The position numbers were made by a program, and so were the translations under genes. 64,000 bases of DNA, taken from positions 1 to 64,000 of the forward strand of contig NZ_BATR01000093.1 in the NCBI RefSeq assembly GCF_000739655.1, in the 5' to 3' direction. The notes under the pieces were generated by a model that searched no databases, was not told where the DNA came from, and saw nothing but the letters and a program-made list of their open reading frames with translations. This document shows positions 12,121-29,364 of this stretch, piece after piece (the stretch's first letter is position 1; each line of letters starts with the position of its first letter). This DNA comes from Verrucomicrobium sp. BvORR106 (lineage in GTDB: Bacteria; Verrucomicrobiota; Verrucomicrobiia; Verrucomicrobiales; Verrucomicrobiaceae).

Positions 12121-12576
12121 ATGAGCTTCTGGGACAATCTCAAAGACAAAGTGGCCGGGATGAACGCATCCCTGCAGACGAACATCAGCAAGTTCAAAAA
12201 TGCCGAGTTTGCGAACGGGACCATGGCCATGTGCGCCATGATCGCGGCGGCAGATGGCACGATCAGTGGTCAGGAGAAGGGCAAGATCGCCACCCTGATC
12301 ACCAACAACGAGATGCTGAAGATTTTCCCGGCGGCCGAATTGAAGCAGAAGTTTGACCACTTCTGCGACAAGATGACTGCCGACTATGACTTTGGCAAAG
12401 TCGAGGCTATCCAGGCGATTGCCAAGCTCAAGAGCAAGCCAGATCAGGCTCGCGCTGTGATTCAGATTGGCATCATCATTGGCGGTTCTGACGGCAATTT
12501 CGACTCCGACGAGAAGAAGGCTGTCAAAGAAGCCTGTTCCGCCGTTGGCATCAGCCCGGCAGATTTCGATCTCTAG
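12121..12576 (+). CDS. terB: TerB-family tellurite resistance protein
   Basis: 151 residues, the usual TerB length. It is an all-helical protein whose two halves each carry an Asp-Gly acidic loop (AADGTISGQEKGKI near 40 and GSDGNFDSDEKKAV near 122), the metal-binding pattern of TerB. The opening MSFWDNLKDKVAGMNASLQ and the ending VGISPADFDL are also typical. Known TerB proteins are cytoplasmic or membrane-associated partners of TerC and TerD in response to metals, phage and other stress. It is the first gene of the plus-strand ter train, divergent from the sulfatase. Confidence 0.9.
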   Translation: MSFWDNLKDKVAGMNASLQTNISKFKNAEFANGTMAMCAMIAAADGTISGQEKGKIATLITNNEMLKIFPAAELKQKFDHFCDKMTADYDFGKVEAIQAIAKLKSKPDQARAVIQIGIIIGGSDGNFDSDEKKAVKEACSAVGISPADFDL

Positions 12577-12600
12577 ATCGGATCAGCAAGTTGCATTTGG

Positions 12601-12619
12601 GGAGGTCCTTGTGACCTCC
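12601..12619 (+). terminator. Short hairpin between terB and the terA-like gene
   Basis: GGAGGTC-CTTGT-GACCTCC forms a 7-bp stem 24 bases after the terB stop and is followed by TTCAGTTTG. The U-rich tail is weak, so it is more likely a partial terminator or an RNA-stability element that lowers expression of the downstream genes. Confidence 0.4.
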
Positions 12620-12659
12620 TTCAGTTTGACCCTCCACGCAACGGACTTTACCAGTTCCG

Positions 12660-13961
12660 ATGACTCCCCTTGCGCGCGGCCAAAAATCCACCCTCTCCAG
12701 CCTCGGTGTTGGAATCTCGGGGGTGAAAGTGCAGGTGACCCTGCGAGTCCCGGCTCCTTCGACCGTTGATTTGAGCTGTTTCGGGCTCGATGCCCAAGGA
12801 CGTCTTTCGGACGAGCGCTACTTCGTTTTCTACAATCAGCCAGCGTCTCCCTGTGGCTCCATTCAAGCCAAGGGGACGGCAGGCGATGTGGATCAAACGT
12901 TTGTGTTAAATCTTGCGGGACTGCCCGCTGGCATCAAAAGGCTCGTCTTCGCCGCCACCATCGATGGCGCTGCCAGTATGAAGGACATTTCTAAGGGGTA
13001 TGTCCAAGTGGGGGATTCCGGCAAGACGGCCGCGGAGTTTCGGCTCCAGCCCGCTGACTACGCCGGGGAAAAAGCCCTGATGTTGATCGAGCTCTATTGG
13101 AAGGATGAATGGCGCCTCGCGGCGACTGGGCAAGGATTCAACGGCGGTCTGGCAGCCCTGCTGAAGCACTTTGGTGGTGAGGTGGCGGAGGAAAAGCCGA
13201 AACCTGCAACCGCCGCCCCCGTGTCAAAGCCAGCACCTCCTCCTTTGCCAGCGAAGGTGTCCCTGTCTAAAATCACGCTGACCAAACCCGGGCAGACCCA
13301 TCGCGTCTCTTTGGAAAAGGGCGCAGGAGCCCCTGCCAAGCTGATCGTCAAGGCGAGTTGGACAGACAACGGCGATGACTCCGACAGCAATGACGACCTC
13401 GACCTGCGGGTGGGGATGCTGCTGCCTGATGGGCGCATGAAGTTCATTCAGGCGCCCGATTTTGCGGGCAGCTTCGATTCCATGCCCTTCGCCCGCCATC
13501 TGGGTGACGTGACAGTGGCGTCACTCAATGCCCCCGCCACCGAGACGGTGGAGGTGAATCCGGCGATCGCCCAGCGCATGGGTGGCAGGGTGGGCATGGT
13601 ATTCAGCGTCTATTCCGCAGTGTCCAACGGCGCAGTCTCCGTGGCGTCTCTCCGCCCCATCATGAAGATGGAGTACGGGAACCAGGTGGTGGAGTGTGCC
13701 TTTGACTTCATGAAAATTGCGGCGTCGAAGGATGACACGGTTTACAGCTATGTGATCGGGCTGGCGGTGATCGATGCCGAGGGTATTACCCTTGAACCCT
13801 CTGGCCTGACTTCACATCCCGGCAGCGAGAATACCCCCTGGCTTCAGTGGACGGCGGAGGGGGGCTTAAAGGCCACCATGGACGGTCCGGCCGTGTTCAA
13901 AGGCAGCCTTGCTTCCAAGGCGGCGTCTTTCAACAAAAACAATCCGCGGCGGTACATCTGA
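12660..13961 (+). CDS. terA: TerA-like protein with N-terminal TerD-type domain
   Basis: 433 residues. The first 175 form a TerD-like beta sandwich ([27 protein letters not shown], and [32 protein letters not shown]). A Pro/Ala-rich linker (about 178-205) follows, then a TerA-type region: [15 protein letters not shown], an acidic [22 protein letters not shown] loop that could hold Ca2+, FARHLGD and the ending [22 protein letters not shown]. In the N-terminal half the Ca2+ site is eroded (DLSCFGLD instead of DLDAS, and no GDGDDE loop). TerA proteins accompany TerD and TerB in ter operons; their biochemical role is not settled. It lies between terB and terD. Confidence 0.8.
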
Positions 13962-14037
13962 TTTTGAACCGATCGCCGTGTTAGCTGTCCTACAGTTTCC
14001 CTCAAAAAGAAGACCAAACCATACATACCTAAACACC

Positions 14038-14613
14038 ATGGCAATCTCACTTAGCAAAGGCGGCAACGTATCCCTCTCCAAGACGGCTCCTGGTCTGACG
14101 AACATCCTGATCGGCCTTGGCTGGGATGCCCGCTCCACGGACGGGGCTGGTTTCGACCTTGACGCGAGCGCTTTCCTCCTGACTTCGGAAGGCAAGGTGC
14201 GCAGCGATGCAGATTTCATCTTCTTCAACCAGAAGGAATCGGCAGACGGTTCGGTCAAACACCTGGGCGACAACACCACGGGTGCTGGTGATGGCGATGA
14301 CGAAGTGGTCAAAGTCAACCTCGCTGGTGTTCCGGCAGATGTGGACAAGGTTTCCGTCTCCGTGACCATCCATGATGCCGAAGCCCGCAAGCAGAACTTC
14401 GGCATGGTGAGCCAGGCCTTCGTGCGCGTCGTCAATGAAGCGGACGGCGCGGAGATCGTGCGCTACGATCTGAGCGAAGACTTCAGCGTTGAGACTGCTC
14501 TGGTCTTCGGTGAAGTCTATCGTCACAGCGGTGAGTGGAAATTCCGCGCAGTGGGCCAGGGCTTCCAGGGTGGCCTCGGGGCCATGGCCAAGAACTACGG
14601 CGTCAACATCTAG
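14038..14613 (+). CDS. terD: TerD-family calcium-binding stress protein
   Basis: 191 residues, standard TerD length; the ATG at 14038 gives the conserved start [15 protein letters not shown]. The Ca2+-binding residues are intact: [10 protein letters not shown] near 40 and [14 protein letters not shown] near 82, followed by [14 protein letters not shown]. TerD proteins are small two-calcium beta sandwiches that assemble at the inner membrane face with TerC and TerB. No Shine-Dalgarno site is evident. It is followed by a strong hairpin (14634-14670) and then by a second terD-family gene. Confidence 0.92.
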
Positions 14614-14694: not shown

Positions 14695-15276
14695 ATGGCC
14701 ATCAGCCTTCAAAAAGGACAGAAAATCTCGCTTGAAAAAGAAGCGGGTGGCAGCCTCACCAAGATCATCATGGGTCTGGGTTGGGATGCGAAGAAAAAGA
14801 AGACCTTCTTCGGCCTGGGCAGCAAGGATCAGGAAATCGACCTTGATGCCAGCTGCGCGCTTTTCGACGAGCAGAACCAGCCGGTGGACATCGTGTTCTT
14901 TGGCCAGCTGGCCAGCCGCGATGGTTCGATCCGTCACACCGGTGACAACCGCACCGGCGCTGGGGACGGCGATGACGAGCAGATCGTGGTGGACCTTTCC
15001 AAGGTCTCTCCCTCGGTGAAATCCCTGGTGTTCGTGGTGAACAGCTTCACCGGCCAGAGCTTTGCCGAGATCGAGAACGCGTTCTGCCGTGTGATCAATG
15101 GTGGGAACAACCAGGAACTCGCGAAGTATGACCTGAGCTGCACCGGCTCGCACACCGCCATGGTCATGGCCAAGGTTTACCGCCACAACGGCGAGTGGAA
15201 GATGCACGCCATTGGTGACAACACCTCCGGCCGAACCTTCCAGGATCTGCTGCCAGCCATGAAGGCCAGCCTCTAA
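14695..15276 (+). CDS. terZ: TerD/TerZ-family protein
   Basis: 193 residues starting MAISLQKGQKISLEKEAGG. It has the TerD Ca2+ sites (IDLDASCALFDEQ near 42 and [14 protein letters not shown] near 84) plus a basic insert GWDAKKKKTFFGLGSKDQ near residue 26, which fits the TerZ subgroup. VNSFTGQSFAEIENAFCRVI and VYRHNGEWKMHAIGDNTSGRTFQDLLP complete the fold. A close relative is encoded on the opposite strand at 27082-27699, so each ter train carries one TerZ-like and one TerD/TerE-like copy. Confidence 0.88.
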   Translation: MAISLQKGQKISLEKEAGGSLTKIIMGLGWDAKKKKTFFGLGSKDQEIDLDASCALFDEQNQPVDIVFFGQLASRDGSIRHTGDNRTGAGDGDDEQIVVDLSKVSPSVKSLVFVVNSFTGQSFAEIENAFCRVINGGNNQELAKYDLSCTGSHTAMVMAKVYRHNGEWKMHAIGDNTSGRTFQDLLPAMKASL

Positions 15277-15337: not shown

Positions 15338-16420
15338 ATGACCAAACCTTGTGTCTGGTTCAGCAGGGCCAGTTCCAGCCTGCACCCCTTGCTGCTGTTG
15401 CTCAAGCAACCCACAGCGGGGGGCGGGCTCCATCTCCTCGTCAGCCACCCCCAGTGGGACGCGCCCGCCATGTGCGGTGCGGATGAGGTTTTCCTCGAAC
15501 CTGATGGGCTTCAGGGTGATGACTACGTGGACTGGTGCCTGGAAGTCTGCCGTACGCGCAGCATTCAGGTGCTCGTTCCAGGACGGGCACGGCCGAACGT
15601 ATCGGCAAGACGGGCGGAGTTTGAGGCGCTGGGCACCCAGGTGCTGGTGGCGGCAGATGACGCGACGCTGCGTCTCCTGGAGGACAAGCCCCAGTTCCTT
15701 GCCGGGATTCCGGAGGACGTGGCCCTAGTTTCTCGCTTCATCAAGGTCAACACGGTGGCAGAATTCACTGCCGCAGTGGAGTCCTTCCGCGAGGAGGGCG
15801 GGACCGCCTGCTTCAAACCGGGCAAGTCGATTTTCGGCTTGGGATTCTATGTGCTCAACGACCGCATCACCCCGGTCAGCCGACTGCTGGACGGGCACGC
15901 CAACGTGATCTCGCTGGCGGAGGCCTGTGACATCCTTGGCCGGGAAGAGAGCTTTCGCGACGTCATGGTGATGGAGTACCTGGACGGAGTGGAATACAGC
16001 GTGGACTGTGTCGGTCGTACTGGCGAACTCGTGGCCTCCGTGGTGCGAATGAAGCCGAAAACGTCCGTTTCACAGGACACTTCACAGACTGTAGGACACA
16101 ACGAGCAGATTGAGGCCCTGGCCCGCCGTCTGGTGGCCCGGTTCTCCCTGGATGGTCTCTTCAACATGCAGTTCCGCACGACCAGCAAAGGTGGGCCGCC
16201 CCGGTTGTTGGAAATCAACGGGCGCATGTCCGGAGGGCTGGCGCTCGCCTGCCTCGCGGGCGTTAATCTCCTCGAACTCGCCATCGCACTCAAGCTGGGG
16301 CAGGACGATGTCGTGGCCGCGTTGCTGGCCAGGCCCGTTCAAACGGTGCGGGCCCAGCAGGGGTTCTGCGCCTTCCTGGCGGACCGGCAGGCATTCAACC
16401 TTCAGGAAGCGCCCTTGTGA
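15338..16420 (+). CDS. ATP-grasp enzyme of the ter biosynthetic module
   Basis: 360 residues. The N-terminal 110 form a pre-ATP-grasp domain (MTKPCVWFSRASSS, then VLVPGRARPNVSARRAEFEALG). The ATP-grasp fold follows: CFKPGKSIFGLGFYVL, VMVMEYLDGVEYSVDCVGRTGELV and the metal-binding end LLEINGRMSGGLALACLAGVN. Such enzymes join a carboxylate to an amine or thiol through an acyl phosphate. In published comparative work on ter systems, an ATP-grasp gene sits with two PRTases, a HAD phosphatase and a CitE-like lyase, predicted to make a nucleoside-like metabolite. All five are here. Its stop overlaps the next ATG (ATGA), suggesting translational coupling. Confidence 0.88.
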   Translation: MTKPCVWFSRASSSLHPLLLLLKQPTAGGGLHLLVSHPQWDAPAMCGADEVFLEPDGLQGDDYVDWCLEVCRTRSIQVLVPGRARPNVSARRAEFEALGTQVLVAADDATLRLLEDKPQFLAGIPEDVALVSRFIKVNTVAEFTAAVESFREEGGTACFKPGKSIFGLGFYVLNDRITPVSRLLDGHANVISLAEACDILGREESFRDVMVMEYLDGVEYSVDCVGRTGELVASVVRMKPKTSVSQDTSQTVGHNEQIEALARRLVARFSLDGLFNMQFRTTSKGGPPRLLEINGRMSGGLALACLAGVNLLELAIALKLGQDDVVAALLARPVQTVRAQQGFCAFLADRQAFNLQEAPL

Positions 16421-17577
16421 TGGCTGCAGAAACGCTTCCGCCTCACGTGGTCCGGACGGATCCGGGGCAATATGAGGCCACTCTTCCTGGCGGTGTCTTG
16501 CGCATGTCCATGCGGCAGGAGGAACTCCCTCTGCCGGAGATTTGTGACTTCGCCCTGAGGCACAATGCCCGTCGTCGATTCCTGTTTGTCAGCAGGGTGT
16601 TGGGGCGGCACATGCCCACCCGTCCTGGGGCCATGCAAGATGTTGCCAGACGCCTGGCAGACAAAATTTCCATCGATCCTGTGGATGGGCCTGTCTTGTT
16701 CGTGGGCATGGCTGAGACTGCCACCACCCTCGCGCAGGCTGTGTATGCCGCCTGGTGCGAGAGGGGCGGGAAGGGCCTCTACATTGAGAGCACGCGACGC
16801 CCCACGGGTGGGCCCATTGCATTTGAGTTCGTGGAAAGTCACTCTCATGCCATGGCGCATCTGGTGCACCTGCCGTCACCTGCGGAGGACCCGGAAGGCC
16901 TTTTCACCACCGCTCGCCGAGTGGTGGTAGTGGATGATGAGGCCACCACGGGACGGACCGCACTGGGATTAGTCGCAAGCTATGCTGCCTGGCGGGGCAT
17001 CGCGGCGGACTCCCTCCGGCGGGAGCTTGCCGTGCTGGCGCGATGGATGACGGATGCCCAGTCCACAGAGTCCGAGTTTGCGGCTTTTCACTCCTTGGTG
17101 GAAGGGCGATTTGAATTCATTGAGACAGGGACCTTTGCGGAAGCTCCTCCAGCCGTCCCCCACCCGGATCGGGCGGGCCTGGCGCGGCGAGGGACCCGCC
17201 ACGGCTTGTCTCACCCCCAGCATCTGCCGTGGCAGTTGGAGGTGACCCCGGGGCATCGCATCCTCGTGATCGGGACGGGCGAGTATGGCTATCAGCCTTT
17301 GCTGCTGGCGGCTGATCTGGAGGCCAAAGGAGCCATTGCCTGGGTGCAGGCCACCACCCGTTCTCCGGTGCTGCCTGGCGGTGCCATTGGTCATGTCAGG
17401 TCGTTTCCTGCTCTTTCGGGAGAGCGGCACACGGAGTTCCTCTACAATGTGCCGGAAGATCACGGTTATGACCGGGTTCTGCTGTGCTGTGAAGACGTTC
17501 TCCCGCCTCTTACGCACCCGATTCATCACATTTCCCGGCTGGAAGTCCTGCCACTTCCCGGCACATTGAGCTCATGA
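16417..17577 (+). CDS. Phosphoribosyltransferase with C-terminal TRSP domain
   Basis: 386 residues. The PRTase domain (about 20-225) has the PRPP-binding loop RRVVVVDDEATTGRTALG near residue 168, with the acidic pair and TTG of type I PRTases, and an upstream VLFVGMAETATTLAQAVY. The C-terminal part (about 275-386) starts GHRILVIGTGEYGYQPLLLA and contains the signature ATTRSPV that names the TRSP domain. The pairing of this PRTase (PRTase_2 type) with TRSP is characteristic of ter-linked biosynthetic clusters. The base or acceptor it transfers ribose phosphate to is unknown. It overlaps both neighbours by ATGA. Confidence 0.88.
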   Translation: MMAAETLPPHVVRTDPGQYEATLPGGVLRMSMRQEELPLPEICDFALRHNARRRFLFVSRVLGRHMPTRPGAMQDVARRLADKISIDPVDGPVLFVGMAETATTLAQAVYAAWCERGGKGLYIESTRRPTGGPIAFEFVESHSHAMAHLVHLPSPAEDPEGLFTTARRVVVVDDEATTGRTALGLVASYAAWRGIAADSLRRELAVLARWMTDAQSTESEFAAFHSLVEGRFEFIETGTFAEAPPAVPHPDRAGLARRGTRHGLSHPQHLPWQLEVTPGHRILVIGTGEYGYQPLLLAADLEAKGAIAWVQATTRSPVLPGGAIGHVRSFPALSGERHTEFLYNVPEDHGYDRVLLCCEDVLPPLTHPIHHISRLEVLPLPGTLSS

Positions 17578-18308
17578 GTCACCGTGACTGGATTGCGACA
17601 GACCTGGATGGCACCTTGTTCGCCCGCGCGTTCGCGGGGCCTGAGGCTGTGCCAGCCACGTGGAGGCAGACGGATGAAGGCCCGGTCGCATCGTCATGGA
17701 TGCCCCGCGCCACCTACGTGCTGATGCGGGCGCTGGCGAATCACTTCGATATCGTGGCTGTCACGGCCCGTGATCTGGATTCCTTCTCCCGAGTTGCCAT
17801 TGAAGGGATCCATTTCCGCGGAGCCATCTTGGCGAACGGAGCCATCATGGTAGGGCGGGATGGGGAACTCGACCCGGTCTGGAATGACCACATGTCAGGT
17901 GTGCTCTCCACTGCTGGAGAGGAGCTGGAAGCCGTGAGGCTGCAGATCGCAGACCTCTCACAAGGAGCAGCCCGCCCGCGTCTTGTCGCGAGCGGCACGC
18001 CTCTGCCTGCCTATCTGGTGGCCAAGGCTGATGAAGAGTGGTGGCAGACGGATGCCGGTGTTAATCTGCTCTCCACCCTGCAGGTCCGTCAGTGTCGCGC
18101 TGCCCTGCTGAAGAATGAGCTGCAAGTCCTGCCACCTGGGGTATCAAAACTGCTGGGACTTACAGCTTACCAGGACCGTTTCGCCGGTGGCATCCCGCCA
18201 CTCATGGGACTGGGAGACATGCCTGCAGATCTTGAGTTTATGAAAGCCTGTTCGTTTCTCGGCATTCCTGCGGGAAGCAAGCTGGAGCAATGCATTACGA
18301 TTCCTTGA
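17574..18308 (+). CDS. HAD-superfamily phosphatase
   Basis: 244 residues. Motif I is ATDLDGTLF near residues 8-15 (Asp nucleophile and general acid/base), AVTARDLDSF gives motif II (Thr), and GLGDMPADLEFM near 212 gives the acidic motif IV of the Cof/sucrose-phosphate-phosphatase type. Within the ter biosynthetic module it would remove a phosphate, perhaps from the nucleotide made by the two PRTases; that is an inference from context. The start overlaps the preceding stop (ATGA). Confidence 0.85.
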   Translation: MSHRDWIATDLDGTLFARAFAGPEAVPATWRQTDEGPVASSWMPRATYVLMRALANHFDIVAVTARDLDSFSRVAIEGIHFRGAILANGAIMVGRDGELDPVWNDHMSGVLSTAGEELEAVRLQIADLSQGAARPRLVASGTPLPAYLVAKADEEWWQTDAGVNLLSTLQVRQCRAALLKNELQVLPPGVSKLLGLTAYQDRFAGGIPPLMGLGDMPADLEFMKACSFLGIPAGSKLEQCITIP

Positions 18309-19420
18309 TGATAACGACCCTCGATCAACCTTCCCAAGCCAGTTTCTCCGGCAGCTACCAGCCGGAGGAGGTGACTTTTTTGCTCCGGAGGATTGAGGTG
18401 TCTGCCACCCCACTGGAGGAGCGGGAGCGCCTTATTCAGAGCGGACAGCGGCACTACAGTGAAATGATCGGTCCAGAAGACGCTCCCACACGGCAGAGGA
18501 TGCGCTTGTTCCGGGAGAGCCTGATCACCAACGGCACCCAACTGGCGCAGGATATCTGCGGCCTGGCGGCGGCCCTCGCGGAGAGTGCGTATGAGGGTGA
18601 GGTGGTCATTGCTTCCATTGCCCGGGCGGGCACACCCATCGGTACGCTACTCTGGCACCGCCTGCGCCAGACCCGGCCCGACCTGCGTGTCTCACACTAT
18701 TCGATCTCCATCATTCGTGACCGCGGCGTGGACTATGCGGCGCTGCGCACGATTCTGCAGAGTCACCCGGCCCAGAGCCTGCGCTTTGTTGATGGCTGGA
18801 CGGGGAAGGGGACCATTGCCACGGAGCTGCGGCAGTCCCTGGCAGGGAAGCCGGAGTTTGAGGAAATAGATGATGGCCTCTGGACTCCGCTCGATGTCTG
18901 TGGCGCGGCCTGCTATGCTCCCAATGCGCGGGATTATCTGATCCCTTCCACCCTGCTGGGGGGCACCGTTTCCGGGCTGGTCTCCCGTTCGGTCCTGCCT
19001 CGAGGAGAGGAGGGCGGCAGCGAGTGGCATGGCTGTGTGGAACTGCGCCATCTGCGGCGCTACGATCTGAGCCAGTGGTTTGTCCGCACGATGCTCGAGA
19101 AGATGGCCGCCCTGGATTCCGGCGACGCATCCCCCCCCAATGCCTCAGGCGGCCAGCCCCGCTATGTGGCTGCCCACGCTTTTCTCTCCGCCTTGCTGGA
19201 TGAACATGGTATGACCGATCGCAACCGCATCAAGCTCGGTATTGGCGAGACGGTGCGGGTGCTCTTGCGACGTCTTCCTCGCTTGGTTTTGCTTTCTCCA
19301 GACGCTCGTGAGACGGACGCCGTGCTCATCCGGCAGCTTGCCCAGCACCGGGGTGTGTCCCTGGAGGTGCGCCAGATGCCATTTGCCGCGGTCGCTTTAA
19401 TCGCGAATGTTGCTCAATAA
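18290..19420 (+). CDS. Phosphoribosyltransferase with PELOTA-like RNA-binding domain
   Basis: 376 residues from the ATG at 18290; an ATG at 18308 that overlaps the HAD stop (TGATG) is an alternative start and would remove six residues. The PRTase_1-type core shows VVIASIARAGTPIGTLLWHRL near 104 and, near 168, VDGWTGKGTIATEL, an unusual PRPP loop with GWTGKGT. The last 75 residues (RNRIKLGIGETVRVLLRRLPR, SPDARETDAVLIRQLAQHRGV) match the L7Ae/PELOTA-type fold reported fused to this PRTase in ter clusters. That points to action on, or regulation by, RNA; the substrate is unknown. Confidence 0.87.
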   Translation: MHYDSLMITTLDQPSQASFSGSYQPEEVTFLLRRIEVSATPLEERERLIQSGQRHYSEMIGPEDAPTRQRMRLFRESLITNGTQLAQDICGLAAALAESAYEGEVVIASIARAGTPIGTLLWHRLRQTRPDLRVSHYSISIIRDRGVDYAALRTILQSHPAQSLRFVDGWTGKGTIATELRQSLAGKPEFEEIDDGLWTPLDVCGAACYAPNARDYLIPSTLLGGTVSGLVSRSVLPRGEEGGSEWHGCVELRHLRRYDLSQWFVRTMLEKMAALDSGDASPPNASGGQPRYVAAHAFLSALLDEHGMTDRNRIKLGIGETVRVLLRRLPRLVLLSPDARETDAVLIRQLAQHRGVSLEVRQMPFAAVALIANVAQ

Positions 19421-21096: not shown

Positions 21097-22134
21097 TCAG
21101 CCTTCGCTGGCTTTGATCTTGAATTCACCACCGCCACCGGGGCGAAGGATGGCCCCGCAGCCGGGGCAGACGCTGGAGCCGTCTTTCTGCCGGGAAGATC
21201 CGCAGAAGACCGTGCCGCAATTCCCGCAGGAGCCGGCGGAAGAGTTGCCACAGTGGGCGCAAGGGGGGCAGCCGTCCACCTCTTGGGAATTGACCGCGGG
21301 AAGCCCTGTGCCACCCCGGGTGCTGAAGTCGCAAGTCTCCGCATCCATGATGTGGGATGCTGCGGGAACATAGACCCGGTAGTCAGGCTCCCAGCGGTAG
21401 CGCATGAGATAGGGCTGCTTGTTTTCACCGCAGAGGGCTGTAAGGAAGAGCTGGCGGGCGCGGCCATACTCCCCGCTGTAGGAGGGAATGTCGTCGTCCT
21501 CGATCTTCTCGACAGAGTCGGGCAGCTTGGCCAGCATGAGTTCGCGCTCGTCGCCATCGGCGACTCCACGGCTGGCGGTGGAAACGGTTTCACTGATCCA
21601 GACGAACAGTTTCGCCCAGCCCTGCTCGTCGGTCTGTTGCAGGTTCAGCACCACGTCCGTCATCTCCCGCAGTCCTGCGAAGTCGATGTCATCCCCGCAG
21701 CCCACCGCGTAGAGGTTCGCGATCTTAACCGTGCTGTTCATCTCCCGCAGGGCGGTGCGCCAGTCGTCGGTGGGCTGGCCGTCCGTGATGAGGATGACGA
21801 TGGGCCGGAAGTCCCCCTTGGTCAGGGTGCCGGGCTGCGAGCGCTTCACTTCCTGCAGGATGCGCTCCGAGAGAAGCAGGATGGCGCTGCCCAGGGAGGT
21901 GCCGGGTCTCACCAGCAGGCGGGGTGGTTGCACCTCATCCAGGCTCTGCAAGGGTGACTTCAGCTCAGCCCGACTGTCGAAGGTGATGAACGAAATCCAG
22001 GCGGTCTCAAGGGCATGCGGATTCTGGCGCAGCGCCTTGAGCATGCTGCTGATGCCGGTGCGCATGCCGCGGAGTCCGTTGCCTATCATGGACTCGGAGC
22101 AATCCAACAAAACGTAAACGGGAAGGCGGCGCAT
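21097..22134 (-). CDS. terY: vWA protein with C-terminal zinc ribbons (TerY type)
   Basis: 345 residues. A von Willebrand A domain (1-200) has a complete metal-ion-dependent adhesion site: LLDCSESM near 10-15, GTSLGSA and ITDGQPTDDW. The C-terminal part contains many cysteines arranged as CPPCAHCGN, CGNCGTVFCG and CPGCGA, matching the TerY C-terminal metal-binding domain. In ter systems TerY acts with a kinase and a PP2C phosphatase, and both follow in this gene train. Two shorter vWA paralogues without zinc ribbons lie upstream at 25750 and 26425. Cytoplasmic; likely a regulatory adaptor rather than an enzyme. Confidence 0.88.
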   Translation of the reverse strand: MRRLPVYVLLDCSESMIGNGLRGMRTGISSMLKALRQNPHALETAWISFITFDSRAELKSPLQSLDEVQPPRLLVRPGTSLGSAILLLSERILQEVKRSQPGTLTKGDFRPIVILITDGQPTDDWRTALREMNSTVKIANLYAVGCGDDIDFAGLREMTDVVLNLQQTDEQGWAKLFVWISETVSTASRGVADGDERELMLAKLPDSVEKIEDDDIPSYSGEYGRARQLFLTALCGENKQPYLMRYRWEPDYRVYVPAASHIMDAETCDFSTRGGTGLPAVNSQEVDGCPPCAHCGNSSAGSCGNCGTVFCGSSRQKDGSSVCPGCGAILRPGGGGEFKIKASEG

Positions 22135-22205: not shown

Positions 22206-23702
22206 CTACACGTTGGCCATCTGGATGTGGACCAGGCGCCCCCCCTCTTCAGGGCTGAGGAGCAGCTTCTGGTCGTTCTTCAGCTCCACCCGGCTGCCGG
22301 GCAGGATGGCTTCGCCCGTGCCGACATCTTTGAGCCCGGGTAGGGTCTGGTTCACCAGCAGCCATTTGCCCCCGTGGAAGACAAAGTAGCCCACGGGCTT
22401 GCGCTGGGCCTCCGTCAGCCTGGCGCTGGGGAACACCAGTCGGGAGACATGCCAGGGATACAGGTATTGGTTGGAATAGACCATGAGCCGGTGGTTGTCC
22501 GGCAGGAACTTCCCGCCTCCGCGGGAGGAGTACAGGTTGAGCACCGGCAGCGGGCCGACAAAGGCGGTGCCGCAGAAGGGGCAGCGAGGCTTGGTGCTGT
22601 TGTCAAAGACGAACCATTTCTGGTCGCAGTTCGGGTTGGCGCAGGGTTGGGCGAGATCCACCGTCTTGACCAGCGCCGTCTCCATGTCCTGCACCGTGGG
22701 ACGCTGGTCCGGAGAGTGCAGGCCGGTAATGAAGGCCTTGTCGAAGACCTCTTTCAGATACGGTCCGCAGACGGTGTAGGGAATCTTCGCGGTGTCGGCA
22801 AAGGGGAGGAAGCCCGGCTTGACGGACGTGGGGTCACTCCGGTTCGAGGAATCAGTGGGATGCTCGATGAAGAGCGCCTTTTCCCCCATGCCGAGCTCCT
22901 CGTCCTTCTGAGGATCGGCATCGTGGATCTTCCGTCCCCGCAGCGGGTGCCGGTAGAGGAGGTACATGTAAACGAGCACAGCCAGGGCATGGCGGTCCGT
23001 CTCGATGCGGGGCAGGTGCTTTTTGGGATCTCCTACCGGCAACTTGAGGGTGGCCATCACCTCAGGGGCGATGAAGTCCGGGGTGCCCACCACATCAGGC
23101 GGATAGCGGCCGGGTACCACCAGAGTGTCGATGTCGATGATGCAGGCGTTCCCGCCCGCAGGATCCACCAGGACGTTCTTGTAAGAGAGGTCGGAGTGGG
23201 CCAGGCCCGCCATGTGCAGACGCCCCACGGAGCGCGCGATCTTGATGCAGGTGGTGAAGTAGCTGAGCCAGTTTCCTCGTTCCCTGGGGTCGAGGTGCTT
23301 CTGCTGGTGATTGGCGGAGGCGAACCATTTCCCCTCCTTCTCCTTTCCCTTGATGCTCAGGAAGTCGTCATTCTTCGACCCATACTGGAAGAAGAAGTGC
23401 GACTTGTAAGTGGGCATGACGATGCCGATGTGACCCTGATCCTCGATGATGTGGGTCGGCCAGCAGAAGAGGGGTTCCCAGTAGGCGCCGCCCTCTTGCT
23501 GGAAGATTCGTTCCCGGTACACGCCGACGATGTTCCGCAGGCGTTCCATGGAGTTGTAGTCGGGCTTCTTGCGGTACCAGCCCACGACCTGCTTCTTGTC
23601 CTTGGAGAAGTACACGTCCTTCATCCCGCCCGAGCCTGCCTGATTGGCGCTGTCGAACTCGAATTCCGTGCCGTCCGTGGCTTTCAGTTTGACGATGCTC
23701 AT
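22206..23702 (-). CDS. Serine/threonine-type protein kinase with zinc ribbon (TerY-P kinase)
   Basis: 498 residues. The kinase domain has a glycine-rich loop AGSGGMKDVYFS (22-33), a catalytic loop HSDLSYKNVL (His169, Asp171, Asn176), a metal motif DIDTL in place of DFG, and activation-segment GTPDFIAPEV, so the catalytic residues are all there. After the C-lobe comes a zinc ribbon, CANPNCDQ and CPFCGT near residues 345-375, and then about 120 residues of beta-rich sequence (FHGGKWLLVNQTLPGLKDV, IPG-like VELKNDQKLLLS) that resemble an FHA-like or small beta domain. Its start overlaps the PP2C stop by four bases. It fits the kinase of the TerY-phosphorylation triad. Confidence 0.86.
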   Translation of the reverse strand: MSIVKLKATDGTEFEFDSANQAGSGGMKDVYFSKDKKQVVGWYRKKPDYNSMERLRNIVGVYRERIFQQEGGAYWEPLFCWPTHIIEDQGHIGIVMPTYKSHFFFQYGSKNDDFLSIKGKEKEGKWFASANHQQKHLDPRERGNWLSYFTTCIKIARSVGRLHMAGLAHSDLSYKNVLVDPAGGNACIIDIDTLVVPGRYPPDVVGTPDFIAPEVMATLKLPVGDPKKHLPRIETDRHALAVLVYMYLLYRHPLRGRKIHDADPQKDEELGMGEKALFIEHPTDSSNRSDPTSVKPGFLPFADTAKIPYTVCGPYLKEVFDKAFITGLHSPDQRPTVQDMETALVKTVDLAQPCANPNCDQKWFVFDNSTKPRCPFCGTAFVGPLPVLNLYSSRGGGKFLPDNHRLMVYSNQYLYPWHVSRLVFPSARLTEAQRKPVGYFVFHGGKWLLVNQTLPGLKDVGTGEAILPGSRVELKNDQKLLLSPEEGGRLVHIQMANV

Positions 23703-25729
23703 GGTTTCGAAGGGAGATGAGTTTCACAGAGGATCGCGATGGTGCGATCATCGTGGTGACCGGGGGAAAAGAAGTTCATCCACTCGAGCAGGCTTTCTGC
23801 GGCCTGATCCCGGGTGGTGGCATCCCTCACCAGAGGCTGCAGTTCGGTCCAGAGTTCCTGCCATTCAGCGGGATCTGCGAGAGCGGACTCGCTGTTAAAC
23901 TTGGGATCGGAGATGCCGTCTGTAACCAGGACCAGGGCATCAAACTGTGGGACCAGGGCAAACTTGATCCGGTTCATGATGCCTTCTCCAGTGGCCAGGA
24001 CTTCCTTCATGGTGAGGAAGATGGTCTGCCCGGCAAACTCGCCTCCATCCGGTTGGGTGAGCAGGCAGGTGGCCCCGTCAGGCACGCCGACCACTGCAGC
24101 TCCGCCATCACCCACTGAAAAGGCGGCGATGAGCCAGCCGCCCGTGGCCATGGGGCGGGCAAGCGTGATGATCAGCGTGGTGTGGAAATCCCGCAGCGTG
24201 GCCTGAGATTCATTGGCTTGGTCTTCAATGGCCTTGCGGGCTGCGTAAGCTGCCCGGCCAAACTGGTTGTACAGCTCACCCTTGACCATCTGGCGCTTGT
24301 CAGCGGAATCAGCGTCTGCTGCCCAGGCTTCCGTCAAGGGGGTCAGAGTATCCTGGCCATTCTCTCCGAGGAGGCTGGAGAAATGCTCTTTGACCTTGGC
24401 GCAGGCAATTTTTGCCCCTTGCCGGGAATACTTGGCACTGCCTGCTCCATCGGCCACCGTCAGGACATACCACCCGGATTGAGGAAACCACGCCAGGGAA
24501 AAGTCATCGTCACGACAGCTGCCCACGTGGGCGTGGGAACGCCCTCGCAGGCTGGCCGCCGCCACCAGATGAGGCGAATCTCCCAGACTGCCGGTATCGG
24601 TGTCCGGTTTCCAGAAGAGAGAGGTGGTGTCTGACGCCAGATTCTTCCAGAGAGATCGGGGATCTGCGTTGATGGTGATTTGAAGCGTTCTCAACAGCTT
24701 GTCGGGACGGTCAGGGTCCGCACCTTGAATCAAGCAGGCAGCAGGAATCTCATACTCACCCGCCTGGAGAGGGCTGCCAGTGATGCTGATGCCATTGGTG
24801 GTCAGACCCTCTGGCAGGGCAGAGACTGGCTCAAAGGATGCAAAGGTGAGGGCTCCTGTCGCCAGATGAGACAGGACGTTCCCGGAGTACTCCCGACCTA
24901 CCGTGGCGTTGGGGAGCCGGACGGGGTAGGAGGGCAGAGGGGGAGGGCTGGGAAAATCACGTGAAGTCACGGCAGGAGGAACAGGGGGTGGTTCTGCGTC
25001 GGACGGAAGGCCGGGCGGGGTTTCGTCCGCCAACTCTGCGGCGAGCGGCGGTGCGGGAGGCTCCAGGTCAGGTGTGGCCTCTTCCGGCAGGGTGATTTCA
25101 GCAGGGGCGGGAGCGAGTGCTTGCGCAGCCGGCGTCGTGGGGATTTCCGGCAGGGAGGATTCCGGGACCGGAGGAGGAGTCTGCGTGGGGGCGGGCGGGG
25201 AGAGCGCGTGGATCAGTGCGTCCAGTTCCGGGGTGGGTTCGAGCCCATCAACCGTCAACAGGTGCTCGACAAGGGACACGAATCCCTGTGGCCAGGCGCT
25301 GTCTTCCCCCAGCCGGCTGAGGATGCTGACGTTCAGCCTCGTGGGAGGCGGGGGCACTTCATGCCCCAGCATCAAGAGATGCAGGACATTGGCCAGGGCC
25401 TGCTTGTCGCGCTGTTGCTGTTCTTCCATCGTCACCCCCTGGCCATTGGGGTAGCCGTAGTAAGTCTCGGCGGCGGTCAATGCGTCATCCCAGCCGATGC
25501 GGTGGCGGAAGAGGGCCACGTCGAAGTCGCCATTGGGCGCACAGATCAGCCTCTGGGCGCACACGGCCCCATGAGACTTGCCCTCAGCGTGAATCTCCGC
25601 GAGGCAACGAAGGAGAGGCAGGACGATGCGGGCCGGGTCGGCCTGGATCAAGTCCCGGTTTCCCAGCAAAAACTTGTGCAGCGGCTGCCGCTGCTCATTC
25701 CTTGTGCCGAGGGAATTGATGGCTGCCAT
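23699..25729 (-). CDS. PP2C-type phosphatase fused to a kinase-like remnant and an Ig-like domain
   Basis: 676 residues with several parts. Residues 1-185 resemble the C-lobe of a protein kinase (LLRCLAEIHAEGKSHGAVCAQRLI, with HGA where HRD is expected, and DFDVALFRHRIG in place of DFG), with no N-lobe: a pseudokinase fragment. A Pro/Glu-rich stretch (about 185-280) follows. Around 285-360 is an Ig/cadherin-like segment (LPNATVGREYSGNVLS, LPEGLTTNGISITGSPLQAGEYEIP). The last 290 residues are a PP2C phosphatase: ADGAGSAKYSRQGA, FSVGDGGAAVVG and LVTDGISDPKF, so the metal-binding aspartates are retained. It overlaps the kinase gene by four bases and should reverse that kinase's phosphorylation. 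Confidence 0.85.
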   Translation of the reverse strand: MAAINSLGTRNEQRQPLHKFLLGNRDLIQADPARIVLPLLRCLAEIHAEGKSHGAVCAQRLICAPNGDFDVALFRHRIGWDDALTAAETYYGYPNGQGVTMEEQQQRDKQALANVLHLLMLGHEVPPPPTRLNVSILSRLGEDSAWPQGFVSLVEHLLTVDGLEPTPELDALIHALSPPAPTQTPPPVPESSLPEIPTTPAAQALAPAPAEITLPEEATPDLEPPAPPLAAELADETPPGLPSDAEPPPVPPAVTSRDFPSPPPLPSYPVRLPNATVGREYSGNVLSHLATGALTFASFEPVSALPEGLTTNGISITGSPLQAGEYEIPAACLIQGADPDRPDKLLRTLQITINADPRSLWKNLASDTTSLFWKPDTDTGSLGDSPHLVAAASLRGRSHAHVGSCRDDDFSLAWFPQSGWYVLTVADGAGSAKYSRQGAKIACAKVKEHFSSLLGENGQDTLTPLTEAWAADADSADKRQMVKGELYNQFGRAAYAARKAIEDQANESQATLRDFHTTLIITLARPMATGGWLIAAFSVGDGGAAVVGVPDGATCLLTQPDGGEFAGQTIFLTMKEVLATGEGIMNRIKFALVPQFDALVLVTDGISDPKFNSESALADPAEWQELWTELQPLVRDATTRDQAAESLLEWMNFFSPGHHDDRTIAILCETHLPSKP

Positions 25730-25749: not shown

Positions 25750-26385
25750 TTAGAACACCAGGTTCACCTCAGGCGGCGGAGGGGGGAGATGGATCTCCGT
25801 GCTGGCGCCCATGCTCACATTGCCTGCTGCCACACTGGAGGACACCCAGCGGAAAAAGCTGAGGAAACTACCGCTGTCCATCGTGTCCAGCGTCACCACA
25901 TGGTCTGCCAGGGGCAGCAGTTCGTCCTTCTTGGCCTTGGGGCCGGCCGCACAGGCAATGATGCTGGCGAACCCGCGCTTCTTCACCTGGGGGACGGTCT
26001 CCTTGTAGAGCATGATGTCGGACGGGGAACCGTCGGTCATGACAAAGAGGATCGGTTTCCAGTCCCCTTTGTTCTCGCCCTGAGACTTGAGCACCTCTGT
26101 GTCCACTCTCTGGCAAAGGACCTCCAGGGCGGCGCCCAGATTGGTCGGACCCGAATCAGGGCAGACGATCGGGGGGAGCTGGAGGGTCTCCAGGCTGCTG
26201 AGGGGCAGGACCACCTTCACATCCCGGTCAAAGGTGATGATGGAAAGGTGCAGGGACTCGAGTGCATGCGGATCCTGGCGCAAGCCGCTGAGCATGGCCT
26301 GAAGTCCAACTTTCACAGACTCCAGGGGTTCTCCTTTCATCGAACCAGAGGTGTCGATGAGGAGGTAGACGGGCAGGCGTCGCAT
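25750..26385 (-). CDS. vWA-domain protein, TerY-like (short paralogue 1)
   Basis: 211 residues, all one von Willebrand A domain. The metal site is intact: LIDTSGSMKGEP, GPTNLGAALE and FVMTDGSPSDIM. It lacks the zinc-ribbon tail of the 21097 paralogue and ends in a Pro-rich, mostly hydrophobic tail (HLPPPPPEVNLVF). The adjacent vWA gene has the same ending (QLPPPPPEIKVVV), so the two are recent relatives. The shared tail could be a docking peptide. Part of the terC-to-AIM24 train. Confidence 0.88.
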   Translation of the reverse strand: MRRLPVYLLIDTSGSMKGEPLESVKVGLQAMLSGLRQDPHALESLHLSIITFDRDVKVVLPLSSLETLQLPPIVCPDSGPTNLGAALEVLCQRVDTEVLKSQGENKGDWKPILFVMTDGSPSDIMLYKETVPQVKKRGFASIIACAAGPKAKKDELLPLADHVVTLDTMDSGSFLSFFRWVSSSVAAGNVSMGASTEIHLPPPPPEVNLVF

Positions 26386-26424: not shown

Positions 26425-27063
26425 CTAGACCACGACCTTGATTTCAGGCGGTGGGGGAGGCAGTTGGTCCAGGCCTTCGACTTCCTTGCCAGCGGTCTCG
26501 ACAGCCTTGCTGTTGCTGCTGACGGAGGCGGACACCCATTTGAAGAACTTGGCCATGGCCGAATGGTCCGAGGTGTCCAGGCGCACCACTGCATCACCAG
26601 CGATCTGCTGAAGCACGGTGGCATCGCCCTTGTTCACAGCACATCCGACGACGACCCCCCACTTCTCCTGCTGGAAGCGGCCAAGGCCCTTCTTCCAGTC
26701 GTCCGTGGGGGCGCCATCGGTCATGATGAACACCATGGGCTTCCAGTCACCCTTGGTGGTGGCGGTGGTTTTGGCGAGTTGTTTGGAGGCGACATCCGCG
26801 ACGAGTGACAAGGCGTCACCAAGCGAGGTGGCACCCTGGGCAGTCAGGGCGGGCACCTGGAAGGCGGTCAGCTCTGTAAGCGGCACCTTCTCCGTGGCAT
26901 TCGAGTCAAAGGTGATCACGCTGAGGAAGGCGGTCTCCAGCGCATAGGGATCCTGGCGAAGCGCGGAGACCAGCATTTGCACACCGTTTTTGACCTGTTC
27001 AATCGGTTCCCCAAACATGGAGCCTGAGGTGTCGAGAAGCAGGAAAACAGGAAGTCGTCTCAT
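26425..27063 (-). CDS. vWA-domain protein, TerY-like (short paralogue 2)
   Basis: 212 residues. The von Willebrand A fold has LLDTSGSMFGEP, GATSLGDALS and FIMTDGAPTDDW. It is a close paralogue of the next gene downstream, including the LPPPPPEI ending, and lies 18 bases after the stop of the terD-family gene at 27082. vWA proteins of this type are thought to assemble multiprotein complexes with TerD proteins and the kinase/phosphatase pair. Cytoplasmic; no signal peptide. Confidence 0.88.
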   Translation of the reverse strand: MRRLPVFLLLDTSGSMFGEPIEQVKNGVQMLVSALRQDPYALETAFLSVITFDSNATEKVPLTELTAFQVPALTAQGATSLGDALSLVADVASKQLAKTTATTKGDWKPMVFIMTDGAPTDDWKKGLGRFQQEKWGVVVGCAVNKGDATVLQQIAGDAVVRLDTSDHSAMAKFFKWVSASVSSNSKAVETAGKEVEGLDQLPPPPPEIKVVV

Positions 27064-27081
27064 GATGGATGAAAAGAAAGG

Positions 27082-27699
27082 TTAGATGTGGGTTTTCAAG
27101 ATATCCACGAAGTTATCGGTGGCCTGGCCTTCACCCAGGGCACTGAACTTCCAGCCACTGCCCTGACGGGCCACTTCACCGAAGACCATGATGCACTTGC
27201 CATTGTAGTTGGGATCCGCGCCCAGGCTGTACCGGGCGATCTCTTTCCCCTTGGCATCAATGGCTCGCATGTAGGCGCTCTCCACTTCGCCGAAGTGCTG
27301 GTTGTTTCTGCGTCCCTGATAGATCTGCACCAGGAAGACGATGCGGTGGTATTGCGCTGGGAGGGCGTTGAGCTTCACCACGATCTGCTCATCGTCATTG
27401 TCACCGCTGCCTCCCACACGGTTGTCGCCCGAGTGGTAAATGGCCCCGCTGGGGTGGCGGAGGTTCTGGAAAAAGATGACATCACTCCCGATGAGCTTCT
27501 CACCGAGATTACGCACCTTGCCCTGTTCGTTCAGCACAAACGCGATGGCGTCCAGGTCATGTTCCTGGCTGCCACCGGTCAGCTTGGCGAAGAAGCCCTT
27601 CTTGCGGATCTTCCATCCCAGCCCGATGGTGATCTGGCTGAGATCGTTGGTGTCCTTTTCCAGACTGATGGTCTGGCCTTTTTGGAGGTTGATGGCCAT
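27082..27699 (-). CDS. TerD/TerZ-family protein (minus train)
   Basis: 205 residues starting MAINLQKGQTISLEKDTNDLS. The insert WKIRKKGFFAKLTGGSQEHDLDAIAFVL gives the first Ca2+ site, and GGSGDNDDEQIVVKL the second; VQIYQGRRNNQHFGEVESAYMRAI and FGEVARQGSGWKFSALGEG finish the fold. The basic insert before the first site makes it the counterpart of the plus-strand copy at 14695. Likely calcium-dependent scaffold of the ter complex. It lies 34 bases after the next terD-family gene. Confidence 0.88.
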   Translation of the reverse strand: MAINLQKGQTISLEKDTNDLSQITIGLGWKIRKKGFFAKLTGGSQEHDLDAIAFVLNEQGKVRNLGEKLIGSDVIFFQNLRHPSGAIYHSGDNRVGGSGDNDDEQIVVKLNALPAQYHRIVFLVQIYQGRRNNQHFGEVESAYMRAIDAKGKEIARYSLGADPNYNGKCIMVFGEVARQGSGWKFSALGEGQATDNFVDILKTHI

Positions 27700-27733
27700 G
27701 CAGGGGGTGGATGAGAGGGCTGAAGAACAATGG

Positions 27734-28285
27734 CTACGCGTACTTGGTCACATAGGCCTGGAGGCCACCTGTGGTGGCCAGCCCCATGGCTTCAAACCTC
27801 CAGGCGCCGTTGCGTTTGTAGAGTCGGCCGAATTCCACTGCGGTCTCGATGGAGAAGTCTTCGTCGAGCTCGTATTTGCAGATCTCGTCACCCGAGGCGG
27901 CGTCGTAGATGCGGATGAAGGAGTTGCGCACCTGCCCGAAGTTCTGACGACGGGTCTCGTAGTCGTGAATCGTCACGGTGAAGACGATCTGCTCCACGCG
28001 AGGATCAATTTTGCCCAGATCGAGGGTGAGCGTTTCATCGTCCCCGTCCGAGTTGCCGCCCGTGCGGTCGTCGCCTGAGGACGTCACCGCGCCGTCTGGC
28101 GACTGCATGTTGTTGTAGAAGACGAAGAACTCGTCTGCAGGAATCTTGTTGTTCGCACCGAGCAGGAACGCAGACGCATCAAGGTCAAAATCCTGGCCCG
28201 TCTTGGCCGGATCCCAGCCGAGGCCGACGCCAATTTTCTGCAGTCCGATGTCTACCCGTTGTCCTTTGCTTAGATTGATGGCCAT
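27734..28285 (-). CDS. TerD/TerE-family calcium-binding protein
   Basis: 183 residues starting MAINLSKGQRVDIG. Calcium-binding segments: [15 protein letters not shown] and GGNSDGDDETLTLDLGKI; VTIHDYETRRQNFGQVRNSFIRI is the conserved central strand pair. It is the closest of the four TerD proteins to TerE and to general stress proteins such as GSP16/17 of Bacillus. Second gene of the minus train, after terC, with a 13-bp hairpin between them. Confidence 0.9.
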   Translation of the reverse strand: MAINLSKGQRVDIGLQKIGVGLGWDPAKTGQDFDLDASAFLLGANNKIPADEFFVFYNNMQSPDGAVTSSGDDRTGGNSDGDDETLTLDLGKIDPRVEQIVFTVTIHDYETRRQNFGQVRNSFIRIYDAASGDEICKYELDEDFSIETAVEFGRLYKRNGAWRFEAMGLATTGGLQAYVTKYA

Positions 28286-28325
28286 CGCGGTCTTTTCTGG
28301 AAAAGATGTTTTGGTTGTGAGGAAC

Positions 28326-28355
28326 CAAGTGCCAGCGCGCAGGCGCTGGCACTTG
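28326..28355 (-). other. 13-bp stem hairpin between terC and the terD-family gene
   Basis: CAAGTGCCAGCGC and its exact complement are separated by GCAG. On the minus strand the hairpin is followed by GGTTCC, with no T-run, so it is unlikely to be a full intrinsic terminator. It sits 34 bases after the terC stop and 41 bases before the next ATG, and may set the expression ratio between membrane protein and downstream cytoplasmic genes or be a short dispersed repeat. Confidence 0.6.
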
Positions 28356-28389
28356 ATCGCAGATTCGGAAGCTGGTCGGTATGGAACCG

Positions 28390-29364
28390 TTATTTCTCAG
28401 CGGCGTCGCCATTTTCACCTTCCTCGGGCGCCTTGACTGCGAGTGACCAGATCACCCCGGTAAGAAGCACGACTGCGACGATGGAAAGACTGACGACATT
28501 CGGCAGGTGGAAGCCGAAGGCGCTTCCGATAAGCTTGCCAGACACAAAGATGAGCAGGACCATCACGGCCTTGTCCAGAGCCCAGAAGAGCCCTTGTGCC
28601 GCTACCAAGAGGAAGTACAGACTGCGCAGACCAGCGGCCGCCCAGAGACTGGAGGTGATCATCAGGTAGGGGTCGCGAACCACGGCCACGATTACGGGCA
28701 TGGAATCGAAGGCGAAGATCACGTCGCAGACCTCGATGCAGATCAGGCAGAGAAACAGGGGAGTGACGCCATGGTGGAAGAACTTGCCGCTCTCAATCGA
28801 AGGGTTGGTGGAGGCAAATTTGCGGACCGCCAGCACCGACCAGTGACTGGTGTAGTCCACCTCTTCGTCATCTTCACCGCTCTTCCACATCTTCCACACG
28901 GTCCAGAGAACCACGAGGGCGAAGAGGATGAGGATGTAAGGGCTGACGTTGACGATCAGGGCACCAAAGCCGAGGAAGAAGAAGCGGAAGATGATGGCTC
29001 CCAAAATGCCCCAATAGAGGATGCGGTGCTGGAAGTGCTGCCGGTTTTCCTGTGTCAGGCCGAAGGACTTGAAGATCAGGTAGAAGGCAAAGAGGTTGTC
29101 CAGTGCGAGGGCCTTCTCAAGGACGTAGCCGGTCGCGTACAGACTGCCAGCCTCAGCGCCTCGGGAGTGCCAGATGTAGTATCCGAAAGCAGCGGAACAA
29201 AGGACCCAGATGATGGACCAAATCAGGGCATTGCCCATGGTGATCTTGTGTCCGCTCTTGTGAGTCAGAAGGTCCACCAGAACCGCCAGGACAAACGGTA
29301 TGATGAAGACCAGGACGTCAGTGAGACTGATGGACGAGAATACGGATAAGGAGTTTTCCAACAT
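28390..29364 (-). CDS. terC: TerC-family integral membrane protein
   Basis: 324 residues from the ATG at 29364; an earlier in-frame start would add 23 non-hydrophobic residues. About eight or nine membrane segments are visible. The TerC signatures are LEKALALDNLFAFYLIFKSFG and ICIEVCDVIFAFDSMPVIVAV, each with acidic residues inside the membrane, thought to move metal ions (Mn2+ in characterised relatives). The C-terminus is acidic and cytoplasmic (APEEGENGDAAEK). It starts the minus-strand ter train and is the only membrane-spanning component in the cluster, so it is the likely anchor for the TerD, TerB and vWA proteins. Confidence 0.92.
   Translation of the reverse strand: MLENSLSVFSSISLTDVLVFIIPFVLAVLVDLLTHKSGHKITMGNALIWSIIWVLCSAAFGYYIWHSRGAEAGSLYATGYVLEKALALDNLFAFYLIFKSFGLTQENRQHFQHRILYWGILGAIIFRFFFLGFGALIVNVSPYILILFALVVLWTVWKMWKSGEDDEEVDYTSHWSVLAVRKFASTNPSIESGKFFHHGVTPLFLCLICIEVCDVIFAFDSMPVIVAVVRDPYLMITSSLWAAAGLRSLYFLLVAAQGLFWALDKAVMVLLIFVSGKLIGSAFGFHLPNVVSLSIVAVVLLTGVIWSLAVKAPEEGENGDAAEK

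Follow-up and report, generated by a model that had tools for sequence, protein, structure and literature searches.

Ter genes are widespread on plasmids, and their natural function is unsettled. In Klebsiella the ter locus is described as a pair of operons, both highly conserved, that lie on opposite strands (PMC8115787). In one account of the Ter model (PMC7824862), the enzymes of the system make a nucleoside- or nucleotide-like signal, TerB and TerD might act in sensing, and TerC might respond at the membrane; the idea of a Ter membrane complex is put forward in two reports (PMC8115787, PMC9933665), and AIM24 is described in the company of TerD in another (PMC5822837). We analyzed a 64,000-nucleotide stretch from Verrucomicrobium sp. 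BvORR106 (assembly GCF_000739655.1, contig NZ_BATR01000093.1, positions 1 to 64,000; herein the window), in which positions 12121-29364 hold 18 Ter genes in two convergent trains of nine, all open and intact. We think it probable, if well short of certain, that the window holds a known kind of Ter locus serving stress or conflict response, rearranged as two convergent operons in one Verrucomicrobial lineage and combining a phosphorylation-gated membrane response with a metabolite arm.

Eighteen Ter Genes in Two Convergent Trains

The original prediction, made from the DNA letters and their open reading frames, placed 18 genes in two opposed trains at this position; the coordinates, open frames, and domains agree with it. 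Pfam gathering scores are reached by 16 of the 18 proteins, the other two falling just under their cut-offs (the HAD protein with Hydrolase_3, 18.7 vs. 20.9 bits; the kinase with Pkinase, 31.2 vs. 31.7 bits). Spacing within the trains, −19 to 104 bp, is consistent with operons, and because the same gene order recurs in other genomes the locus is not a chance array.

The + train opens with TerB (12121-12576; PF05099, E 8.6e-23; PDB 2jxu TerB, E 3.6e-30), followed by a TerA-like protein with an N-terminal TerD domain (12660-13961; PF02342, E 5e-35), TerD1, which the tree below and its matches place in the TerD/TerE type (14038-14613; PF02342, E 8.1e-86; PDB 2kxt, E 9.3e-86), and the TerZ-type TerD2 (14695-15276; PF02342, E 4.2e-57). 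The remainder is the five-gene biosynthetic module linked to Ter systems, in the order seen at many other loci: an ATP-grasp enzyme (ATPgrasp_Ter, 15338-16420; PF15632, E 6.7e-37), a phosphoribosyltransferase (PRTase_2) with a TRSP domain (16417-17577; PF15609, E 1.4e-47; PF12500, E 1.6e-16), an HAD-type phosphatase (17574-18308), assigned from its conserved position and a match below cut-off (PF08282, E 0.0016), a StiP-PELOTA protein (PELOTA_1, 18290-19420; PF11202, E 1e-79; PF15608, E 7.6e-18), and a C-C bond lyase (C-C_Bond_Lyase, HpcH/HpaI-like, 19439-20404; PF15617, E 1.4e-59).

The − train is headed by the membrane protein TerC (28390-29364; PF03741, E 6.6e-36). Then come TerD3, of a Verrucomicrobial signaling-train type (27734-28285; PF02342, E 1.4e-68), TerD4, of the TerX type (27082-27699; PF02342, E 9.2e-55), vWA1 (26425-27063; PF00092, E 1.5e-12), vWA2 (25750-26385; PF00092, E 9.9e-12), a PP2C phosphatase (PP2C_2, 23699-25729; PF13672, E 1.9e-39), a protein kinase (22206-23702; PF00069, E 1.9e-7), a vWA protein with a TerY_C metal-binding domain (21097-22134; PF00092, E 2.8e-10; PF15616, E 2.3e-7), and an AIM24/TIGR00266 protein (20342-21046; PF01987, E 1.9e-59; TIGR00266, E 2.6e-43). 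The lyase and AIM24 genes overlap tail to tail by 63 bp (20342-20404) where the trains meet.

The predicted division of the TerD family, two and two near the train starts, is borne out: these genes are third and fourth in the + train and second and third in the − train, and with the TerA-like protein of the + train the TerD-domain proteins of the locus number five. The description of the gene set as nearly every known Ter component is fair, TerC and TerB both being present; it stops short of TerW and DUF4236, components of the enterobacterial locus that were not found in the two same-genus loci (G021, G049).

The Convergent Layout Among Verrucomicrobial Genomes

Searches covered 189 genomes sampled from the order, 68 of the window's family, and 387 of the phylum, the window's own genome (G000) being counted in each; the sampled genomes are related, and co-occurrence counts are thus not independent. 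Within the order, the lyase family PF15617 occurs in 11 genomes, TerD in 12, and TerY_C in 10. A kinase query matches 55 genomes at E 0.001, only 10 of them above 600 bits; the next best scores 119.8 bits, and matches at or below this value were taken for other kinases. Lyase and strong kinase occur together in eight genomes (G000, G021, G049, G052, G066, G131, G003, and G028), six of which (all except G052 and G131) have the convergent two-train layout. Six of the 11 genomes with the lyase thus show the convergent arrangement, which had been proposed to be unusual; as sampled it is not widespread and is confined to one Verrucomicrobial lineage. G021 and G049 belong to the window's genus and G066 to its family, while G028 and G003 come from another family. 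The order of the + train is identical in all six, and that of the − train in G000, G021, G049, and G066; G003 has an extra TerA/TerF-like gene.

The two remaining genomes with both genes differ in arrangement. G052 carries the modules in one train, with no match to TerB, the TerA-like protein, or AIM24 in its stretch, which starts 331 bp from a contig end, and in G131 they are split over two contigs, each broken at its end. The lyase occurs without a strong kinase in three genomes: G141, G181 (77% complete), and G071, where a contig ends in a fragment of the kinase gene. StiP is present in 6 of the 68 genomes of the family; in the phylum sample 13 of 387 match at E 0.001 and three exceed the cut-off, these being the window's own genome, G021, and G377 (a partial match, 29.6 bits).

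In a midpoint-rooted kinase tree the six convergent genomes form one group (100/100) across two families, and G052, G131, and G170, all of the window's own family, form another (100/100) together with locus L053. Because the kinase tree groups the convergent genomes across family boundaries, the layout tracks gene descent more than taxonomy, which suggests a single origin of the layout and its movement between families.

A wider sample was drawn with a seven-row StiP alignment as query: from a public genome collection, the best 80 of at least 584 relatives were examined over at most 10 kb on each side. This is a sampling of the closest relatives, from which records close to the genome of the window may be missing, and 55 of the 80 stretches reach at least 8 kb downstream. 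No opposite-strand Ter gene is seen in 64 of the 80 stretches; 10 have one or more downstream of StiP and 6 upstream. The window's convergent layout occurs in 1 of these best 80 loci (L052), itself a contig of G028. An AIM24 gene is present in 34 of the 80. StiP relatives are carried by 2,567 of 72,556 plasmid records, and Ter plasmids are mostly enterobacterial. A different convergence is seen in a Pseudomonas locus (L080, 11059-18596), where a train of the terZABCDE type runs toward the enzyme genes, so that Ter modules seem to have become convergent on more than one occasion.

Each Train Carries Its Own TerD Types

The relationships of the TerD proteins were examined in a tree of 80 TerD domains, with the TerA rows, which apparently mix domains of two-domain proteins, left out of the interpretation. 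TerD4 groups with TerX of Enterobacter and with a Sulfuriferula TerD that lies among vWA genes (7 rows, 100/97); TerD2 groups with TerZ of Enterobacter and Pseudomonas (18 rows, 99/96). TerD3 falls in a Verrucomicrobial group of signaling-train TerDs (12 rows, 100/99), and TerD1 joins the TerDs of two AIM24-bearing loci at 94/83, under the starred level. Local duplication as the source of the two-and-two arrangement was considered and is ruled out by the grouping of TerD4 with TerX and of TerD2 with TerZ of other phyla. Because the types group with their module counterparts across phyla, the split between the trains is, as read from this tree, old and module-specific, each train carrying its own TerD type. 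Such types provide a naming rule for reading other Ter loci.

All four window TerDs retain the DLD motif and an acidic motif of the DxDDE type. In an alignment with three Enterobacter TerDs, from which the TerA-like protein was left out, the acidic positions D39, D41, D77, D84, D86, D87, and E88 (from TerD1 residue 2) are invariant; we take these residues to be putative Ca2+ ligands, and their conservation is what bears on the originally predicted sensing of Ca2+ or metal.

The window's genome encodes a sixth TerD elsewhere (L143 9411-10847, + strand, the same gene as G000:C53:11411-12847). This 478-residue protein combines a TerD domain (E 1.3e-52) with a restriction-nuclease domain, HSDR_N_2, that scores 29.7 bits against a cut-off of 25, and its gene adjoins, by eye, a DNA polymerase III alpha-like gene, away from other Ter matches. 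TerD-containing open frames in G021 (477 residues) and G049 (500 residues) may be its orthologs.

The Kinase, the PP2C Phosphatase, and StiP

The kinase residues D171, N176, and D190 are invariant in 10 of 10 sequences. Compared with the Enterobacter kinase and with those of Verrucomicrobia that do not fall in the convergent group, the window kinase shows 59 to 63% identity; in a comparison with G070 and with Enterobacter kinases the identity is 59 to 60%, against 37% for StiP and its Enterobacter counterpart. The catalytic region is followed by a four-cysteine motif (C354, C359, C374, and C377) and a C-terminal domain. A forkhead-associated (FHA) domain is named in 22 of the first 33 Foldseek rows for this tail (best E 2.6e-4), and the other 11 (CEP170, Pml1, spliceosome, APLF/XRCC4, and OdhI) presumably contain FHA domains as well. 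These matches come from a weak model, with a mean predicted local distance difference test score (pLDDT) of 51 and residues 381 through 498 in blocks of 58 to 91, which counts against the assignment; an FHA-like domain at the C terminus of the kinase is possible.

The kinase and PP2C genes share 4 bp. The first 200 residues of the phosphatase (25130-25729) give a PDB profile match to PpkA (5hnv, E 2.3e-5); direct profile comparison of this part with the kinase domain gave no support (probability 2.3%, P 0.021). The region, which looks like a degenerate kinase C-lobe in this lineage, shares 36 to 86% identity with its counterparts in the five further convergent genomes, is faint in G052, G131, and G170 (20 to 26%), and is not evident in Enterobacter.

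The StiP model is confident (pLDDT 93; predicted template modeling score 0.92). When the Foldseek matches were re-examined, PyrR and HGPRT-type proteins aligned with the first domain (Z 8.3 to 9.3, root-mean-square deviation 3.1 to 5.2, 115 to 170 residues aligned) and L7Ae/L30e/YlxQ proteins with the second (Z reaching 8.8), values to be read beside the Z of 7 to 8 that is common for models without a clear match. The comparison is topped by two capsule multienzyme rows (Z 10.8 and 10.3) that are not phosphoribosyltransferases, and the Foldseek E-values are weak, none being under 0.001 and the best HGPRT row reaching 1.0e-2. The motif FVDGWTGKG, present in 7 of 7 StiP alignment rows, resembles, as we see it, a phosphoribosyl pyrophosphate loop. 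On this basis StiP looks like a phosphoribosyltransferase-like fold joined to an L7Ae-like domain. Pfam and the plasmid annotation name it a cysteine protease. H247 and C249 are invariant in 30 of 30 alignment rows; in a separate alignment position 249 is Phe in G052, which makes the protease name doubtful, though it does not disprove it. A literature search for StiP as a protease yielded nothing informative.

A Proposed Working of the Locus and Its Alternatives

From the gene content, order, and conservation of the locus, the kinase and TerD residues observed in it, and the confident StiP model, together with the published Ter model (PMC7824862), we infer each functional step as follows. The − train would be a signaling and membrane arm, with TerC, two TerDs (one of the TerX type), the vWA proteins, AIM24, and the PP2C phosphatase set against a kinase that may bear an FHA-like domain. 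The + train would be a sensing and metabolite arm, with TerB, the TerA-like protein, TerDs of the TerD/E and TerZ types, and five enzymes; these (ATP-grasp, two phosphoribosyltransferase-fold proteins, HAD phosphatase, and C-C lyase) would be expected to yield a nucleotide-like compound. Stress such as metal, oxidant, envelope damage, or phage attack would shift the balance between kinase and PP2C. Phosphorylation, read by the FHA-like and vWA domains, could then cause vWA proteins and Ca2+-loaded TerD to assemble at the inner membrane on TerC and AIM24, and the enzyme module might provide a small-molecule signal or effector to be read by the TerD and TerB proteins.

Several observations on the loci weigh against this reading. 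The − trains of G028 and G003 are without TerD3, TerD4, and vWA1. Two of the 10 Ter kinase carriers, G170 (87% complete) and G070 (98% complete), have the signaling train and lack the lyase, and in G141 (86% complete) the PRTase, HAD, StiP, and lyase genes are present with no TerD match. Nor does the StiP tree unite the six convergent loci, although at that depth it is not resolved and would speak neither for nor against a single origin of the layout. The original prediction that all modules act in one membrane-linked complex is weakened by G170, G070, and G141 in so far as such a complex would be inseparable.

The same three genomes, in which each module occurs apart, favor the view that the trains are two functionally independent Ter modules, one for metal or stress signaling and one for a metabolite, which transfer brought together and which remain neighbors but do not operate jointly; the one train of G052, with its missing matches near a contig end, and the lack of a strong promoter common to both trains point the same way. 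We give this view a modest chance of being right. It fits poorly with the presence of a Ter kinase in 8 of the 11 lyase carriers, when that kinase occurs in just 10 of 189 genomes, with the kinase fragment at the contig end of G071, and with the adjoining of kinase and enzyme genes in Gammaproteobacteria and Verrucomicrobia alike.

Control of the two trains bears on this question. When the sequences preceding TerB and TerC are compared, their best ungapped match is an equally spaced, possibly promoter-like pair, TTGCnCGAC-N12-TGTmT, at 12084-12109 (+ strand) 5′ of TerB and at 29408-29433 (− strand) 5′ of TerC, the latter inside a genus-conserved block; both sites are weak. Four of 300 column shuffles reach this match with the three genomes of the genus and 9 of 300 with four genomes, and the TerB side of G066 retains the first half of the pair and not the second. 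With a pattern derived from these same TerB and TerC sites, the exact form occurs once in the window's genome, as often as its reversed control, and with at most two mismatches it finds the two sites in the window against 1.2 expected, a count equaled by 34 of 100 shuffles. A second pattern with another spacing gave four chance-like sites and missed the TerC site. An element common to both train heads is suggestive only and is not relied on here, and co-regulation of the trains is weakly hinted at.

A more elaborate version of the proposal, in which the six convergent loci would form a Ter subtype of their own, is unlikely. Such a subtype would keep a kinase-FHA/PP2C/vWA/TerX/TerC arm and a TerZ/TerA/TerB/metabolite arm as two separately controlled operons, balanced by a shared promoter element and in some members by antisense overlap, with the metabolite and the phosphorylation switch both feeding one membrane assembly. 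We hold it quite improbable, too, that the locus is an ordinary tellurite or metal resistance determinant to which the enzymes and kinase are accessory. By one report terZ-F in trans suffices for tellurite resistance in a laboratory strain of E. coli (PMC8115787), and terC is described as adding to zinc resistance in Klebsiella (PMC12054061); the former report nonetheless judges tellurite resistance highly unlikely as the physiological role (PMC8115787), and the window's TerC lies in the signaling train, apart from TerB, unlike in the resistance operon. That the convergent overlap is itself regulatory, read-through giving mutual antisense transcripts by which one arm would offset or shut out the other, is very unlikely: overlaps of 63, 63, 63, and 60 bp in G000, G021, G049, and G066 and the absence of a terminator-like site at the junction in a simple scan would suit it, but the scan is blind to Rho-dependent ends, the trains are 39 bp apart in G028 and ∼1.8 kb apart in G003, and small overlaps of convergent genes are not rare.

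A rearranged Ter locus with a signaling arm and a metabolite arm thus remains our preferred reading. With clean module boundaries on a contig of more than 100 kb, and outside the enterobacteria, the locus has arms that could be deleted one at a time, which would open crosstalk between the enzyme module and the membrane complex to direct testing. Left of the cluster, on the − strand at 7669-9705, lie two adjoining similar proteins, ThuA-like by eye, in an apparent tandem duplication.

Comparison with Known Systems

The presence of all modules in one place, from which the original prediction argued for a single complex, is not new. A locus on an Enterobacter plasmid (L049, NZ_CP091488, 8186-26468) has, in 18.3 kb and two trains, counterparts for 17 of the 18 window genes, matched by class and not by orthology, TerD3 having its own Verrucomicrobial group. 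One strand carries terE, D, C, B, A, and Z, and the opposite strand ATP-grasp, PRTase, HAD, StiP, lyase, DUF4236, TerW, vWA, TerX, vWA, TerY-C, PP2C, and kinase; a further partial TerA-like match lies at 7045. The enterobacterial locus thus shares with the window's a length of ∼18 kb, two trains on opposite strands, the enzyme order (ATP-grasp, PRTase-TRSP, HAD, StiP, and lyase), and a TerX-type TerD that lies among vWA genes, with TerY-C, PP2C, and kinase next in line. It differs in that its trains are divergent, whereas those of the window are convergent; in that TerC and TerB share the resistance operon terZABCDE(F), whereas in the window TerC heads the signaling train and TerB the enzyme train; and in AIM24, not seen there and present here.

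The mostly single-train loci of Pseudomonas, Janthinobacterium, Chromatiaceae, and the Verrucomicrobial relatives G052 and L053 have the same enzymes and TerD proteins but mostly no Ter gene on the opposite strand, as in the 64 of 80 stretches above. On a Deinococcus plasmid (L050, NZ_CP092192), PRTase, HAD, StiP, and lyase genes face a convergent train of kinase-like, PP2C, and vWA genes; unlike in the window, no TerD, TerB, TerC, or AIM24 match lies within the 32.5 kb examined, StiP is annotated as two open frames, and the kinase-like protein is built differently.

The PpkA/PppA/Fha threonine phosphorylation pathway of the type VI secretion system is the nearest analogy for the proposed working, with a kinase, a PP2C phosphatase, and a vWA domain at the inner membrane and an FHA-type reader for which the window has a candidate counterpart, and a null mutant is reported to link the pathway to oxidative-stress resistance (PMC3224232). 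In the window the possible FHA-like domain is fused to the kinase and the vWA parts are separate genes. Because there are no secretion genes among its 18 genes, the extent of that search, the locus appears to resemble this pathway in outline without being a member of it. A PADLOC scan of 10 of the 18 proteins satisfied no defense-system model; the kinase alone matches, best to PD-T4-6 (E 6.3e-5). No printed convergent Verrucomicrobial Ter locus was found in a search of titles and abstract openings, which did not extend to the founding comparative-genomics paper (10.1039/c2mb25239b).

The gene set and the division into two trains are already known from these systems. What is new in the Verrucomicrobial locus is the convergent orientation and the regrouping of genes between the trains, which places TerC with the signaling genes and TerB with the enzymes.

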